A stretch of DNA of 64,000 nucleotides. Source: Corynebacterium mendelii (lineage in GTDB: Bacteria > Actinomycetota > Actinomycetes > Mycobacteriales > Mycobacteriaceae). Positions 10,179-55,396 of the stretch are shown here, one piece after another. Below the pieces are notes generated by a model. The model made no database searches, was not told the origin of the DNA, and saw only the letters and a program-made list of their open reading frames with translations. The stretch lies in the NCBI RefSeq assembly GCF_017307055.1, contig NZ_JAFLEQ010000003.1:541733-605732 (forward strand), written 5' to 3'. The translations under genes and the position numbers were made by a program. Each line of letters opens with the position of its first letter. Position 1 is the stretch's first letter.

Positions 10179-11735
10179 CTAGGGTCTGCGCCAGGTCCGG
10201 TGTTCCCGGGAGAGCATTTTTTCGGCCGATTCCGGGCCCCAGGTTCCCGCTTTGTAGGGTTCGGGTTTTCCGTGCGTTGCCCAGTAGTCGAGAATCGGAT
10301 CGAGGATTTTCCACGACAACTCCACTTCCTCGTTGGTGGGAAACAGGCTGGATTCATCCAGCAGAGCATCCAGAATCAGCCGCTCATAGGCCTCCGGCGA
10401 CTGTTCGGTGAAGGCTTCCGAATAGGAGAAATCCATGTTGACGTCGCGCACCTCCATGGTCGATCCGGGAACCTTCGACCCGAAGCGCATGGTCACTCCC
10501 TCATCGGGCTGCACCCTGATGACCATGGCATTTTTTCCCAGCGCGGTGGTCATCACATCACCGAAGGGCTGGTGGGGGGCCTGTTTGAACACCAGGGCGA
10601 TTTCGGTGACCCGGCGGCCCAGGCGTTTGCCGGTGCGCAGATAGAAGGGAACCCCGGCCCACCGCCGGGAGTTGATCTCCAGGGTCAGGGCGGCGAATGT
10701 TTCGGTGGTTGATTGCGGATCGAAGCCGTCTTCCTCGGTCAGACCGCGCACCTGTTCACTGCCCTGCCAACCGGCCGTGTACTGGCCGCGGGCGGTGGTT
10801 TTCGCCAGCGGCAGCACCGGTTTGGTGGCCCGCAGCACCTTGATTTTTTCCGCCTGCAGCTCAGACGGGGTGAATTCGATGGGTTCTTCCATCGCAGTCA
10901 AAGCCAACAGCTGGATCAAGTGGTTCTGGATGACATCGCGTGCCGCCCCGATACCGTCGTAGTAGCCGGCCCGGCCACCCAATCCCATGTCCTCGGCCAT
11001 GGTGATTTGCACATGGTCGACGTAGTGGGAGGTCCACAGCGGATCGAACAGCTGGTTGGCAAAGCGCAGCGCCATAATGTTCTGGACGGTTTCTTTGCCC
11101 AGATAGTGGTCGATGCGGAAAACCGCGTCTTCGGGGAAGACGGCGTTGACGGTTTCGTTGAGTTCTTTCGCCGAGGCCAGATCATGGCCGAAGGGCTTTT
11201 CGATGATCACCCGCCGCCACTGGCCGTCGGCTGCCTCTGCCAGCCCGGAGCGCTGCAGCTGATGGCACACCGGGGAAAACGAGTCCGGTGGAATCGACAG
11301 ATAAAACGCCCAGTTGCCGGCGGTGCCGCGGGTGTTGTCGACTTCGGCGACAGTGGCGTTGAGGGTGTCGAAGGCAGCGTCGTCGTCGAAGGTGCCGCGG
11401 ACAAAGATAATGGCTTCGGCCAGGCGCTGCCACACATTGTCCCGGAACGCGGTGCGGGCGCCGTGTTCCACCGCTTTTTTCACGTAGTCGCAGAAATCGT
11501 CATGGTCCCAGTCGCGGCGGCCGAAACCGATGAGGGTGAAACCGGCCGGCAGCAGACCGCGGTTGGCCAGATCGTAGATAGCGGGCAGAAGTTTTTTGCG
11601 CGCCAAGTCTCCGGTGACACCGAAAATGACCATGCCGCACGGGCCTGCGATACGGGGAAGCCGCTTGTCCTGGGGGTCACGCAGCGGATTGAACCAGGTT
11701 GAACGGTCCATGGCGCCGGTTAGAGTGTTTGTCAC
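10179..11735 (-). CDS. zwf: Glucose-6-phosphate 1-dehydrogenase
   Basis: Oxidises glucose 6-phosphate to 6-phosphogluconolactone and makes NADPH, the entry step of the oxidative pentose-phosphate pathway. With the GTG at 11735 the product has 518 residues (C. glutamicum 514). Visible are the coenzyme-binding VIFGVTGDLARKKLLPA, the active-site RIDHYLGKE with catalytic His, and the C-terminal DALLDESSLFPTNEEVELSW. A TTG at 11795 would add 20 residues, and an ATG at 11711 would remove 8. The GTG best matches the family, though its ribosome binding site is weak. It is preceded by a small secreted-protein gene rather than directly by tal. Confidence 0.96.
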   Translation of the reverse strand: MTNTLTGAMDRSTWFNPLRDPQDKRLPRIAGPCGMVIFGVTGDLARKKLLPAIYDLANRGLLPAGFTLIGFGRRDWDHDDFCDYVKKAVEHGARTAFRDNVWQRLAEAIIFVRGTFDDDAAFDTLNATVAEVDNTRGTAGNWAFYLSIPPDSFSPVCHQLQRSGLAEAADGQWRRVIIEKPFGHDLASAKELNETVNAVFPEDAVFRIDHYLGKETVQNIMALRFANQLFDPLWTSHYVDHVQITMAEDMGLGGRAGYYDGIGAARDVIQNHLIQLLALTAMEEPIEFTPSELQAEKIKVLRATKPVLPLAKTTARGQYTAGWQGSEQVRGLTEEDGFDPQSTTETFAALTLEINSRRWAGVPFYLRTGKRLGRRVTEIALVFKQAPHQPFGDVMTTALGKNAMVIRVQPDEGVTMRFGSKVPGSTMEVRDVNMDFSYSEAFTEQSPEAYERLILDALLDESSLFPTNEEVELSWKILDPILDYWATHGKPEPYKAGTWGPESAEKMLSREHRTWRRP

Positions 11736-11815
11736 GTCGATTACTTGTCTGTGGGAAAAGAAGGGGACAGTGTCGTGGGATGGGGCCGGCTGCAATCCGG
11801 TGGCCCCTGCCGGGG

Positions 11816-12124
11816 TTAGGCGGGCGTGTCGTCGATGAAGGTGTTGGAGCTGAGCGAATCACCGGCTTTGGCCCCGGTGGAACCGAACTGGGGGTCGTTG
11901 ATGATCAGGGTGGCCACCACCGAGGCGAGGATGGTGGCAACGAGCGAGGGCACCACGGCGATTCGTGACAGATCGAAATCCAGCTGCGGCACCGGCATAC
12001 CGGCGGCCGGGACAGCCTGTACCACCGCGGGTTGCTGCGGAGTCTCGGCCACCGCAGGTGCCGCAGCGGTCAGGCCGGTGGCGGTGGCGGTGGCAAGGGC
12101 GACGGCGGCGAGGGACAGGCGCAT
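11816..12124 (-). CDS. Small secreted or membrane-anchored protein, unknown
   Basis: A 102-residue protein with a clear Sec signal peptide (residues 1 to about 26, ending APAVAETP), an Ala/Pro/Val-rich stretch, and a second hydrophobic segment around residues 58-76 (VVPSLVATILASVVATLI), then a polar Gly/Ser-rich tail. The ATG has agaagg nine bases upstream, so translation is well supported. It lies between tal and zwf, 80 bases before the zwf GTG, and may share their transcript. I do not recognise the family. Plausible roles are a small cell-envelope protein or a pore-forming peptide, but nothing in the sequence decides this. Confidence 0.75.
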   Translation of the reverse strand: MRLSLAAVALATATATGLTAAAPAVAETPQQPAVVQAVPAAGMPVPQLDFDLSRIAVVPSLVATILASVVATLIINDPQFGSTGAKAGDSLSSNTFIDDTPA

Positions 12125-49336: not shown

Positions 49337-50584
49337 ATGGTTGAACTGTTAGGACCGTCATTGGTGTGGATTGTGCTCATTGTCTTCGTGGCCCTGGTGG
49401 TGTCACGGTCGGTGAAACTGATCCACCAGGGGGAAGCGGCCGTCATCGAACGCCTCGGCCGCTACACCCGCACCGTCGAAGGCGGCATCACCCTGATCAT
49501 TCCTTTCATTGACCGGGTGCGGGCCAAAGTCGACACCCGTGAGCGGGTGGTCAGCTTCCCGCCGCAACCGGTGATCACCCAGGAAAACGTCACCGTTGGC
49601 ATCGACGTGGTCGTCACCTTCCAGATCAATGACCCGGCCCGGGCGATCTACGGGGTCGACAACTACATCTACGGTGTTGAACAGATCACTGTCGCAACCC
49701 TGCGTGACGTGGTCGGTGGCATGACCCTGGAAGACACACTGACCTCCCGGGAGATGATCAACCGCAGGCTGCGCGGCGAACTCGATGCCGCCACCACCAA
49801 ATGGGGTCTGCGCATCTCGCGGGTGGAACTGAAAGCCATTGACCCGCCGGCCTCGATCCAGCAGGCGATGGAGATGCAGATGAAGGCCGAACGTGAAAAG
49901 CGGGCGATGATCCTGCAGGCGGAAGGCCAGCGGGAAGCCGACATCAAAACGGCCGAGGGCGACAAACAGGCCCGGGTGCTGTCGGCGGAAGGTGAAAAAT
50001 CGGCCGCTATTTTGGCCGCTGAAGCCGAACGCCAGGGCGAGATTCTGCGCGCCGAAGGTGAACGTGCCGCCAAGTTCCTGCGCGCCCAGGGTGAGGCCCG
50101 CTCAATCCAGAAAGTCAACGCCGCCATCAAAGCCGCCCAGATCACCCCGGAGGTGCTGGCCTACCAGTACCTGGAGAAACTTCCGAAAATGGCCGAAGGC
50201 GACGCCAACAAAACGTGGATCATTCCCAGCCAATTCGGCGATTCGCTGGAGCAGTTCGCCCAGGCGCTGGCCGGCAAAGACGATGACGGGGTGTTCCGCT
50301 ACGAGCCGGCGGCACCCACCGAGGAGGAAATCGAGCTGGCCAAGGAAGAAGACACCTCCGACTGGTTTTCCACCGAGACCGACCCGGAAATCGCCAAAGC
50401 CGTCGCCGCCGCCAACGCCGTGGCCAACAAACCCATCGACGACCCGGAGATTCCGACACCTCGTCCGATGCCCGGTTCCGCTGCGGCAACCACACCCGAG
50501 CTGGATGCCGCACCGCCGGCAACCGACGGTGACATCGACATCCCGGAACATCATCCGGCAACCGGCGGCCATGTCAACCCCTGA
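49337..50584 (+). CDS. SPFH/Band 7 (stomatin-like) membrane protein
   Basis: A 415-residue membrane-anchored scaffold protein. One N-terminal helix (about residues 8-24) is followed by the Band 7 domain (residues 28-190: RSVKLIHQGEAAVIERLGRY, TREMINRRLR-like region, GLRISRVELKAIDPPASIQQAMEMQMKAEREKRA), then a long coiled coil with repeated AEGE/AEGER units to about residue 265, and an acidic Pro-rich disordered tail. It probably forms ring-like oligomers with the NfeD protein upstream. aggaagg precedes the ATG. A strong terminator follows. Confidence 0.93.
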   Translation: MVELLGPSLVWIVLIVFVALVVSRSVKLIHQGEAAVIERLGRYTRTVEGGITLIIPFIDRVRAKVDTRERVVSFPPQPVITQENVTVGIDVVVTFQINDPARAIYGVDNYIYGVEQITVATLRDVVGGMTLEDTLTSREMINRRLRGELDAATTKWGLRISRVELKAIDPPASIQQAMEMQMKAEREKRAMILQAEGQREADIKTAEGDKQARVLSAEGEKSAAILAAEAERQGEILRAEGERAAKFLRAQGEARSIQKVNAAIKAAQITPEVLAYQYLEKLPKMAEGDANKTWIIPSQFGDSLEQFAQALAGKDDDGVFRYEPAAPTEEEIELAKEEDTSDWFSTETDPEIAKAVAAANAVANKPIDDPEIPTPRPMPGSAAATTPELDAAPPATDGDIDIPEHHPATGGHVNP

Positions 50585-50986: not shown

Positions 50987-53900
50987 GTGAATGGAAAAAA
51001 CCCGACAACCGTGAAGACAACAACAGCACACCATCTCCTGGCCTGCACCGTGGTGGCCACGCTCGCCGTCTGCGCAACGGTGGCCGGGTTTATCACCCCG
51101 GTCCGGGCCGCGTCCCCGGCCGACGGCCCGGCGGTGGTCCAGATACTCAACAGCAACCAGTCGTACCGGACCGCTGTCGCTGAAGGACAGACCTTCACGG
51201 TGGCCTCCACCTTGGTTTGGCGCAACAATTCACCCGCTGCGGCCGCACCCGAATCAGTCGGGCAGATCATTACCCCGGTCAACGGGGTGAAGGCTTCCCG
51301 GGTGGTTTTTTCCTCTGACCGGGTCAGCGGCACAAAGCTGATCACCCCGGGATCACATAAGGCAACAAACAACGGCGCGGGGACGCGGTAGACGGTACCT
51401 GCCGGTGTGATCCGTGAAGTTCCCGCGGGGGAAACGGCATCGGCGGTTGTGACCGTGACCTACACGATCACCAAACTTGAGGAAGCCACCAAAGAATTGA
51501 AGCGGTGGTGCGACGGTGACGGCAACGGTGTCAGGGCGCGGGGGTTTGTCGGCGATGACGAAAGCTCCCCGGTGTGCACCAGCATCAGGTTTCCCAAAAT
51601 GACTCTCACCCGCACGGTGGCCGACCTTCGAACCGACGATGAAGTGGTCATTGTCGGCAACGGCCGGAAAACGGTGGATTTTCACCTACACGATTGTCAA
51701 CACCGGGTCCTCGCCGCTGAAGGATTTCACCCTGGTCGACCAAGCGGTGGTGACGGGTGCCGCAGGAATCCCCGAGCGGCGGGCCAAGCTGGATTTAACC
51801 GGCCTGACATGCACGGCAGCATCCCGGGACGGGAAGAAGGGGGACAAGGATCTTCCCGTGACCGTCACCGTTGAAGACGACAACACAACCGCGGCGATCA
51901 CCCTCGACAACAATGACACGCTCGGGCACCGGGGCACAGTAACCTGTGTCCTGAACAATGTTGACCTCAACGAGATGGAATACACGGTCGATTATGCCCG
52001 CCGGCTGTTCGCTGTCACCGCGACAGTGGTGCCCGAGCAAGGGCAGAGGCTGGCGGCCAACCAGGACACCGTATCCAAAAGCGTGTCAACCCTGTTCAAA
52101 AAACAGGACGCCTCCCGCTTTGTCTCCACCCTCACCACGGGACCGGCGCCTGACAATCGGGTGCTGGACGGACGCGAGGGGCAAAAAATCGCGGCCGAAT
52201 TCACCCTGGAGGTGTCCAACACCAGTCCCCGCTACAGCCACACCCCGACAACGGTATCGGTTGATGTATCCGGAATTGCCGACGGTATCGAGGTCACCTC
52301 GGTCACGCTCAGCCCGGTGAACCCCGTGGGCGGCAACCGGCTGGTCGACGACGAGATCCCCCTGAACAAAACACCGGCAGGGATCTGGCAGACAACCAGG
52401 GGACTCAACACCATTGCCGGGAACTCGTCCGGCCGGGCGATAGTTCGTGTGACCGCCCGGGTGGACAAGGTTCCCGGGGCTGATCACCGCCAGTGCAACA
52501 ACAAACCACACAGCGGCTTGTTTGTCTCAGCGGCCACCGATTCCGGCAGCGCGACGAGCGCCTGTCTGGCAATGGCTCTCCAACAAGCCAGTTTCCACCG
52601 GACGATCTCGACAATCGAGGGTCAACCAGGGCGCGCGGCCAACACGCCCGGATCCCCCTTTTCGGTGGCCCCCCACCAACGTGTCTGGTTCGGCTGGACT
52701 GTCCGCAATACCGGTGAAAGCACCCTTGGTGACATGATCGTCCACGATTATGATCTCCAGGTCGTCAACGGGCGCAATGACACAGAGGTGGCCAATCGTA
52801 TCCCGGAGTCGTTGACATGCGATAACGGGGCCACAGCCGAAAAAAGCGTCGACGGCAAGGGTTTTTCCGTCACTTTCGGCTCGACTGGCCTGCTGCCCGG
52901 GCAAGCGGTGACCTGCGCATACGGCAATGGTAGTGAACCTCTGTGGCAGGGCAATCGCTCCCAGACGAAAAGCGCGGCGAGAATCCGCAGCAAGTTTTTC
53001 AAAAGACATGTGGCCGACGAACCGCCGGCCTTGCTTGATGCGGAGTCGACTGTTTACGCCCGCCAGCCCGGTCCATCCGTCTTCGTCTCACAGATCACCA
53101 ATAAGGGTCAAGGTGACAGCCGCCATGCGCCGGTGGTGGTGACAGGGGCCAAAGACCAGAAGATTGCGGTGACATGGTTGGTCAACGTCAGAAACTTTGA
53201 CTACCGGGAGACGTTGCGGCCCGGGGATCTGGGTTTTACCGCAACGACGCTTCCCGGCACTGCCATTACGGCACTGTCGGTTACCCCGCTGGAAAACAAA
53301 GACGACAGCCTGGTCGACGAACCCCGTGTCGTCACCGACCCCGCATCAGGCCTGCTGATAGTCAGGAAGAACGAGATCAACGGCATTGCGCCCAACACCA
53401 CCCGGGCCGCCTACGTGACGGCACTGTACACGGTCACCGATCCGGTGGCACTGATCAGGGACCGGGACACGTTGTCGTGCGGCACCAAGGGCGGCTTCAG
53501 CCTGACCTCCGGTGCAGGCCATGACTGCCGGGATGTGGCTTTCGCTCAGATTGCCGGTGATGTTTCCATCAACGGGTCAAAGAAGTTTCAATTCGACAAC
53601 CCCCGGTCCGCCACTGTCACCTACACGGTGAGAAACACCGGAAATGCCAGCCTGCCGACAATCCAGTTGTATGACGCCGGCTGGATGCCCCGGGAGGACA
53701 CCCCTGATCCCACAGACATTATGGTCGGTCCCACCCGCGTGATGGACCATGTGTCCTGCCAGCCTTCCAGCATCGGTGGGGTGGTGCCGCAGCTTGTGCA
53801 CAGACGACGTCACGACACCGGCGGCGCTGATGTGCACAGTGTGCTGCTGTCGTTTCCCGAGAATAAGCCCTTCCAACCCAACAGCCGCATCGAATGCACC

Positions 53901-54329
53901 CGCACCGTTTCCTACGACGAGATGTTTGGCGGCGGGACAAACCATTACGGAGTGCATTTCTGGGCCGACGGGTATGCCTCATTTCCAGTGATGCAGCAGA
54001 AAAACGGCGGCAGCACACCGGGAGCAGTGTCATCGCAGAATGTGGATGCCCGGGCAGAGGTGGTGACACAGCCGACTGCCGGTGGTGGGGGCCGGGACAC
54101 CAACGACAACCGCCCCGGTCCGAACCGGCAGCCGGGTGGCGGCACCGAAACACCACGGGTTGAACCGGCACCGGACGTATCATCGACGGGAGGCGCCGGG
54201 ATTGCTGCGCTGGTGGTTGTGCCGTTGCTGGCCGTCGTGGCGGCCATCATTTATCTGTTGATGCCGAAGCAGGGGATTGGCGCGACACTGCTGTACTTCC
54301 CGGCGGAAGGCACCTTCCACGTGGTGTAG
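50987..54329 (+). pseudogene. Large surface protein gene, interrupted by a stop codon and a frameshift
   Basis: The parts form one protein of about 1,110 residues. The first part (50987-51388) has a signal peptide (residues 10-42, LLACTVVATLAVCATVAGF) and ends at TAG 51389. The same frame then continues in sense (VTVTYTITKLEEATKEL onward) to about 51670, where an extra base in an AAAA run (51668-51671) moves it into the 896-residue frame that runs to 54329. That frame carries repeated DUF11-like units (WIFTYTIVNTGSSPLKDFTLVDQ, VWFGWTVRNTGESTLGDMIVHD, VTYTVRNTGNASLPTIQLYDAG) and cysteines spaced as in such repeats. The C-terminus has a Pro/Gly linker, a degenerate sorting-like VSSTGG and a membrane helix. 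Probably a decayed or phase-variable cell-surface protein. Confidence 0.75.
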
Positions 54330-54450: not shown

Positions 54451-55035
54451 CTACCGCGGTGGCGGGGACGCGGTGGCCTCATCGAGGCGCGTGAGAAGGT
54501 TGACGGCCAACTGCCAACCGGCGTTTTCGGCCTGCCATGCCGCAGCCTGCAGCCGCTGGGACATCGCCTGCTTGGAGATACCGAGTTCTTCCGCGGCTTC
54601 GATCTGTGAGTAGCCACGGCGCATGAATGAGGTGGCTTCCCGCCCCTCCGGGGTGCGCCGGGTGAGAATCTGGGCAATCAGCATGAATACGGCCACAATA
54701 TCGGCGGGGCCGACTCCGCCGGCCGCATCCACGGCCGCGGCCACCGTTCCAGGTTTGGCTTTTTTCGTCAGGCAGGAAGTTGCCTTGGCCACGGCCGTTT
54801 CCGCGCTCGCCCCGTGTCCGATTCCGACCGCCCAGTCCCCGTCGCTGAGAAGCACCATCGTTGTGTCGACCACAGCCCGCGGGGTGGCCACCAGGGCACG
54901 GATATTCTCCACATCAAGATGTTCGAAAGAACCGACGCCATCCAGGGTGGACAAAGCCTCCGCCGAGCGGGACACGAATTCCGCGCGGCGGGGGGTGTCA
55001 CCTCTGTAGCGGATGTGGAGAGCGAAAACAGCCAT
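54451..55035 (-). CDS. SatD-like / HTH DNA-binding protein
   Basis: A 194-residue protein. The N-terminal 140 residues resemble the SatD-type domain (MAVFALHIRYRGDTPRRAEFVSRSAEALSTL; VVDTTMVLLSDGDWAVGIGHG). The C-terminal part has a sigma-factor-like helix-turn-helix, RGYSQIEAAEELGISKQAMSQRLQAAAWQAENAG. It is probably a transcription regulator; no partner gene is adjacent. aaagg precedes the ATG at 55035. The open frame upstream to 55107 is not supported. Confidence 0.7.
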   Translation of the reverse strand: MAVFALHIRYRGDTPRRAEFVSRSAEALSTLDGVGSFEHLDVENIRALVATPRAVVDTTMVLLSDGDWAVGIGHGASAETAVAKATSCLTKKAKPGTVAAAVDAAGGVGPADIVAVFMLIAQILTRRTPEGREATSFMRRGYSQIEAAEELGISKQAMSQRLQAAAWQAENAGWQLAVNLLTRLDEATASPPPR

Positions 55036-55396
55036 GAAAACCTTTGCGGACGGGGTGAAAATAACCAGGGAAGACGGTGTGCTGGCTGCGGTGAAGCATC
55101 CAGCCACCGGATAGGCCGTCTAAAGTCTACTCTTAAGGCTTGACTACGGGCGGGTGTGCGGAAAAAGGGGGGATGTATCCGATACGGGTGGAGGATTGTT
55201 GCGCCTGCCCGGTGCCGGGTACGACGGGTTTACCGGGCATGTCACCGCTGCGACCATGCCGGTCACAGACGATGGTTTACCGTGCGCCGCCCCCGGCCCC
55301 CGGCGGATATGCGGTGTACCCACAAATGACAGACGGGCCGGGGCGGGGGTGGTGTGCCCGTACCGGTGGGAGGGCCGGCGGTGGTGCCGGCGCGGG

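Follow-up and report, generated by a model that had tools for sequence, protein, structure and literature searches.

The gene at positions 50987 to 54329 of the window, by which we mean the whole stretch of 64,000 nucleotides of Corynebacterium mendelii DNA that was analysed, is best explained as a pseudogene that lost its function recently and once encoded a cell-surface protein with a signal peptide, three pairs of A and B domains and a hydrophobic anchor at the C-terminus; it is so far known from one genome. We estimate the probability of this reading at roughly 0.78. In the assembly the gene is interrupted twice, by a premature stop codon and by a change of reading frame, and coding sequence is present on either side of both breaks. 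The features on which the description rests are the following.

50987-51388, + strand: 5' part of the broken gene, comprising a GTG start, a signal-peptide-like segment and the first half of domain A1 (from sequence, codon usage and profile)
51389-51391, + strand: premature TAG within domain A1, with coding in one frame on either side (from sequence, codon usage and profile)
51392-51670, + strand: remaining half of A1, probably followed by the beginning of B1, in the original frame (from codon usage and profiles)
51661-51684, + strand: interval of the frame change from frame 2 to frame 0, containing one A4 and one T4 run (from codon usage)
51639-54329, + strand: open remainder of 896 codons, comprising B1, A2, B2, A3, B3 and a C-terminal hydrophobic segment without LPxTG
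52080-52670, + strand: domain A2, an internal copy that serves as a yardstick for A1
53016-53597, + strand: domain A3, an internal copy that likewise serves as a yardstick for A1
49337-50584, + strand: upstream neighbour, a stomatin/SPFH (Band 7) protein
54451-55107, - strand: downstream convergent neighbour, with only a sub-threshold HTH match in Pfam

Reading Frame and Coding Signal

The first open reading frame (50987-51391) begins with GTG and encodes 134 amino acids, with an N-terminus that, judged by eye, resembles a signal peptide, while the second (51639-54329) encodes 896 amino acids and retains about 880 intact codons downstream of the frame change. The coding signal was followed with a model of codon usage whose training set was 108 genes from the contig of the window. 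From 50987 to 51388, frame 2 scores highest, at +0.11 per codon (-0.39 and -0.89 for the other frames), and the same frame is again the best from 51392 to 51670, at +0.256 (-0.85 and -1.01 for the others); from 51680 to 54326, the highest score, +0.173, is that of frame 0. The Viterbi path contains a single frame change, at 51669, and the positions with a posterior above 2% span 51661-51684. Since frame 2 is the coding frame on both sides of the TAG and another frame takes over only later, the TAG interrupts the gene as a nonsense codon in frame, and the frame change further on is a distinct second break. Furthermore, the codon usage of the three pieces is atypical to a similar degree (1.9th, 2.8th and 1.9th percentile of the 108 contig genes), which is consistent with their belonging to one gene. 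The giant surface protein encoded on contig C9 of the same genome lies at the 4.6th percentile.

The initial annotation, made from the letters of the sequence, had described a large surface protein broken by the TAG at 51389-51391 and by a one-base shift in the AAAA run at 51668-51671, with a frame that stays meaningful on both sides. Both positions are found as it gave them, and its view of the frame is borne out by the single change in the Viterbi path as well as by the domain homology described below. The attribution of the shift to the AAAA run holds only in part: the run falls inside the interval 51661-51684, but the change is not pinpointed to it, as a T4 run shares the interval and the sequence does not distinguish between its parts. 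The AAAA run is consequently kept as a candidate site only.

In the proposed course of events, translation would start at GTG 50987 and terminate within the first A domain, at the TAG, and the resulting stub of about 134 residues would be exported. The remainder lies past the second, independent frame change and appears to have no signal peptide of its own, so that no full-length surface protein is expected to be made. The locus is a recognisable gene with an interrupted frame, as is typical of a pseudogene, and the last 880 or so codons, which carry no lesion after the two breaks, suggest that the inactivation is recent. Recent decay, the first of the options considered in the initial annotation, is the best supported of them, given these lesion-free codons and the equal codon usage of the three pieces.

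Domain Homology across the Breaks

The protein begins with a segment resembling a signal peptide, continues with three pairs of A and B domains and ends in a hydrophobic segment. Two long repeats in the remainder, A2 and A3, are followed by B2 and B3, respectively, and the third pair, A1-B1, spans the breaks. For domain A, a four-row profile was built from A2, A3 and two copies from a vWA protein of 1101 amino acids encoded in the Corynebacterium genome G023, with A1 excluded. Read through with X at the stop, A1 scores 26.2 bits on this profile, a value that none of the 946 scored shuffles reaches (1000 were made; the best gave 11.4). When the same profile is searched against 242 genomes of the genus, A1 is recovered at 51179-51598 with one TAG inside and an E-value of 1.8e-5. 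As A1 is absent from the profile and yet is matched across the TAG, the homology spans the interrupted domain. A two-row profile made of A2 and A3 is too weak: A1 gives 6.2 bits on it, a score matched by 8 of 963 scored shuffles.

Regarding domain B, a profile of 17 rows was assembled from the stretch that follows domain A in relatives together with B2 and B3; some of these rows align poorly. On this profile, B1 after the shift, in frame 0, reaches 30.9 bits, with none of 187 scored shuffles as good, and the sequence ahead of the shift, read in frame 2 as before, reaches only 4.9 bits, with one of 191 scored shuffles as good.

No family at cut-off was found over the A domains in Pfam (the gene and six relatives) or in NCBIfam (the gene and four), and a sequence search of the PDB returned nothing at E up to 1. 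A structure model of domain A3, computed from 24 sequences, has a mean pLDDT of 75. With this model, Foldseek gives one match at E < 0.001, with TM-scores of 0.14, and the rows at Z 6 to 7 in VIA-align include the pilus backbone protein RrgB, tied with other beta proteins.

Genomic Setting

The assembly that contains the window is a draft of 18 contigs totalling 3.09 Mb. The broken gene stands alone in it between the stomatin gene and the convergent gene. Both of these neighbours are present in 13 of the 14 stretches from relatives, the remaining one (L038) being without the right-hand gene. In 12 of these 13 stretches, the two matches either overlap slightly or are separated by no more than about 250 bases. 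The exception, L049, has between them an unrelated-looking open reading frame of 525 amino acids at 10443-12020 on the - strand, whose N-terminus resembles a signal peptide and whose C-terminus is hydrophobic. The position beside the stomatin gene is used there by a different, secreted-looking product, and it may be a recurrent site for surface genes.

The presence of a lone gene at the stomatin site can be read as a gain here or as a loss in the others, gain being the simpler reading. No convincing flanking repeat that would mark an insertion was found around the gene. Neither a pilin nor a sortase is found beside it, and the only sortase found on the contig lies approximately 470 kb away. 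The closest stomatin among the relatives is less than 81% identical; the compared genomes thus include no near sister species, and the restriction of the gene to one genome may partly reflect sampling.

Distribution and Relatives of the A Domain

The 896-residue protein has a strong match in one of the 242 genus genomes, namely its own. Weaker matches occur in 20 of the 242 at E up to 10, with 4.3e-7 as the best value in another genome, and a search of 298 genomes of the order gives matches in 17 at E up to 0.1, its own included, without adding anything strong. No strong candidate for an intact orthologue is found in plasmids, in the 242 genus genomes or in the 298 order genomes, nor in a peptide-pattern scan of the genome contig collection, a scan that reached close relatives only and may have passed over records closest to the window. 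When the collection is scanned with a protein of a relative, the sole return is that protein's own record. Nine loci with weak genus matches to the C-terminal region 816-865 were inspected and display no clear pattern.

The A domain itself is present in 16 of the 242 genus genomes, including that of the window. In the 15 others, the open reading frame that carries it is 412 to 1473 amino acids long. According to simple sequence patterns, another open reading frame of the fetched stretch has an LPxTG-like ending in all 15, a sortase-like frame bearing TLxTC is flagged in 12, and the A-domain protein itself ends in an LPxTG-like signal in 12. Furthermore, four of the six proteins scanned with Pfam out of these 15 pilus-cluster proteins contain a vWA domain. 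Collectively, these data indicate that the A domain comes mainly from pilus-cluster proteins, which are probably tip proteins, as deduced from gene order and vWA. In the window gene, the domain occurs outside any pilus cluster and without either vWA or LPxTG.

Two of the relatives' genes are also broken, both in pilus clusters. One (L144:6491-9148, + strand) is split by a single in-frame TAG, at a position that differs from that in the window gene, and the other (L141:6585-9289, - strand) has its halves in two different frames, the sequence between them containing no N. This amounts to three broken A-domain genes out of 16 when the window gene is counted and to two out of 15 when it is left out, the latter not being clearly above a pseudogene share of about 5% as in C. 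bovis (chance about 0.17 by our own arithmetic). In C. bovis, each genome was counted to have about 110 pseudogenes (PMC6306256), and frameshifts in spaA, a pilus gene, are reported for C. pseudotuberculosis (PMC5406005). Disrupted genes for surface proteins are common among corynebacteria, and the present one is in this respect an ordinary finding.

Further large surface genes were observed in the same genome. On contig C9, an open reading frame of 4394 amino acids (L051:6357-19541, - strand) has an LPxTG-like C-terminus and 21 DUF11-type matches, 16 of them above cut-off. Two sortase-pilus-like clusters, L157 (contig C17:101000-120999) and L158 (contig C12:116000-132000), each contain a large open surface frame, of 2136 and 1623 amino acids, respectively. 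The four-row A profile finds no match in either cluster at E up to 0.001.

Alternative Explanations

An error of sequencing or assembly, by which the real gene would be open and one or both breaks would be artefacts of the draft, is unlikely, although some general features of the data speak for it. The assembly is a draft in 18 contigs, with eight short N runs in 400 kb, and PMC6306256 gives 363 pseudogenes, vs about 110, for the type strain of C. bovis sequenced by the 454 method, an excess that its authors blame partly on the chemistry. The frequency of such errors was estimated by comparing 400 kb of the same contig with 400 kb of genome G023, taking best matches with at least 45% identity over at least 60% of the length. 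Among the 111 conserved genes that passed these limits, four were flagged; on inspection, one of the four contains a gap of 63 N, and the rest reflect gene ends that occur naturally or a gene divided where two domains meet. Frame lesions are thereby found in none of 110 assessable genes (about 129 kb). The corresponding 95% upper bound is approximately 2.3e-5 per base, and at this rate the chance of two errors in the 3.3-kb gene is about 0.003 by our own arithmetic, which assumes independent errors and does not extend to a locally poor stretch. In addition, the window is free of N, a spurious stop and a spurious indel would be errors of different types, and the surface frames of 4394, 2136 and 1623 amino acids elsewhere in the assembly stay open. 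Sequencing error had been offered as an option in the initial annotation; it keeps a place as a less likely explanation, weakened by the absence of frame lesions among the 110 genes, and both breaks are probably carried by the living strain. As a separate observation, the run of 63 N, one of the eight in the 400 kb, lies in a gene on contig C12 at about 536713, just upstream of the window, so that small gaps or masked positions do occur in the contigs. We take this gene to be RapZ, and the frames split at a domain boundary are presumably ThiE/ThiD.

A contingency gene, in which slippage at a short run would toggle the surface protein on and off, is very improbable, even if the protein is of the surface type and the frame change lies near short homopolymers. 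Contingency tracts are usually longer runs. The tracts at the putative switch point are only four bases long and ordinary in their surroundings: the window contains 956 runs of at least four bases, including 119 A4 and 97 T4, and A and T runs of 5-7 bases occur elsewhere. Moreover, a single slippage would not restore the whole frame, as the independent TAG upstream would hold the gene off in either phase and would not be removed by it. No second copy of the gene, from which the defect could be converted, was found in the assembly. Taking into account the ordinary runs, the second block and the lack of such a copy, the suggestion that the tract is phase-variable or the defect reversible is disfavoured. 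A literature search found no report of phase-variable surface genes of Corynebacterium, which is no proof of their absence.

Readthrough of the TAG combined with a ribosomal frame shift, by which the full protein would still be made, is scarcely credible: the coding signal and homology on either side of both breaks are compatible with it, as is the in-frame TAG found elsewhere in the pilus-cluster gene of L144, but two rare recoding events would be required in one gene, TAG is an ordinary stop in this genome (the stop codon of 41 of the 108 contig genes), and among the 24 A-domain matches of the genus search a stop within the domain occurs only in the A1 copy of the window gene.

Comparison with Known Systems

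The nearest known counterparts of the broken gene are the large proteins of corynebacterial sortase-pilus clusters, probably tip pilins of the SpaC/SpaF type, with which it shares domain A as well as domain B downstream of it. The names SpaC and SpaF are used as in PMC3164646 and PMC5406005, and their application to the A-domain proteins is suggested by gene order and vWA. In contrast to SpaC-type tip proteins, the window gene has no vWA domain (three pieces, Pfam, E up to 1) and no LPxTG signal, and its neighbours are a stomatin gene and a convergent gene instead of pilin and sortase genes. It also differs from the SpaC/SpaF-type proteins in its three A-B pairs and its hydrophobic C-terminus. 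A second likeness is to surface proteins with DUF11 or DUF7507 repeats, domain B1 falling just under the cut-offs of TIGR01451 (23.5 of 24 bits) and PF24346 (26.4 of 27 bits). Unlike in those proteins, only one stretch of the window gene resembles the models, and its A domains attain the cut-off of no Pfam or NCBIfam family.

It is conceivable, although we put this forward tentatively and on balance doubt it, that the gene belongs to a hitherto undescribed class of corynebacterial surface proteins that stand on their own. Such a protein would carry A-B modules of pilus clusters outside the sortase-pilus system, three times over and with a hydrophobic anchor, at a stomatin-side site that another genome fills with an unrelated secreted-looking protein; genes with these modules would be lost repeatedly (three of 16 broken), and the present one would be seen just after its loss. 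The novelty is mild and lies in the unmodelled A domain, in its occurrence here away from pilus clusters and in the further broken genes that carry it. A domain of corynebacterial pilus clusters thus occurs also outside pili, in a lone gene of one species, and, as the scans against Pfam and NCBIfam gave no match for it, it could receive a model of its own. The gene provides a small, checkable case of recent loss, of little significance alone, broken surface-protein genes being as frequent in the genus as they are. In this respect, it resembles the spaA pseudogene of C. pseudotuberculosis, as reported in PMC5406005, and the genes of L144 and L141, which are likewise surface genes disabled by a stop or frame lesion; it is distinguished from all three by its position outside a pilus cluster and by its two lesions.
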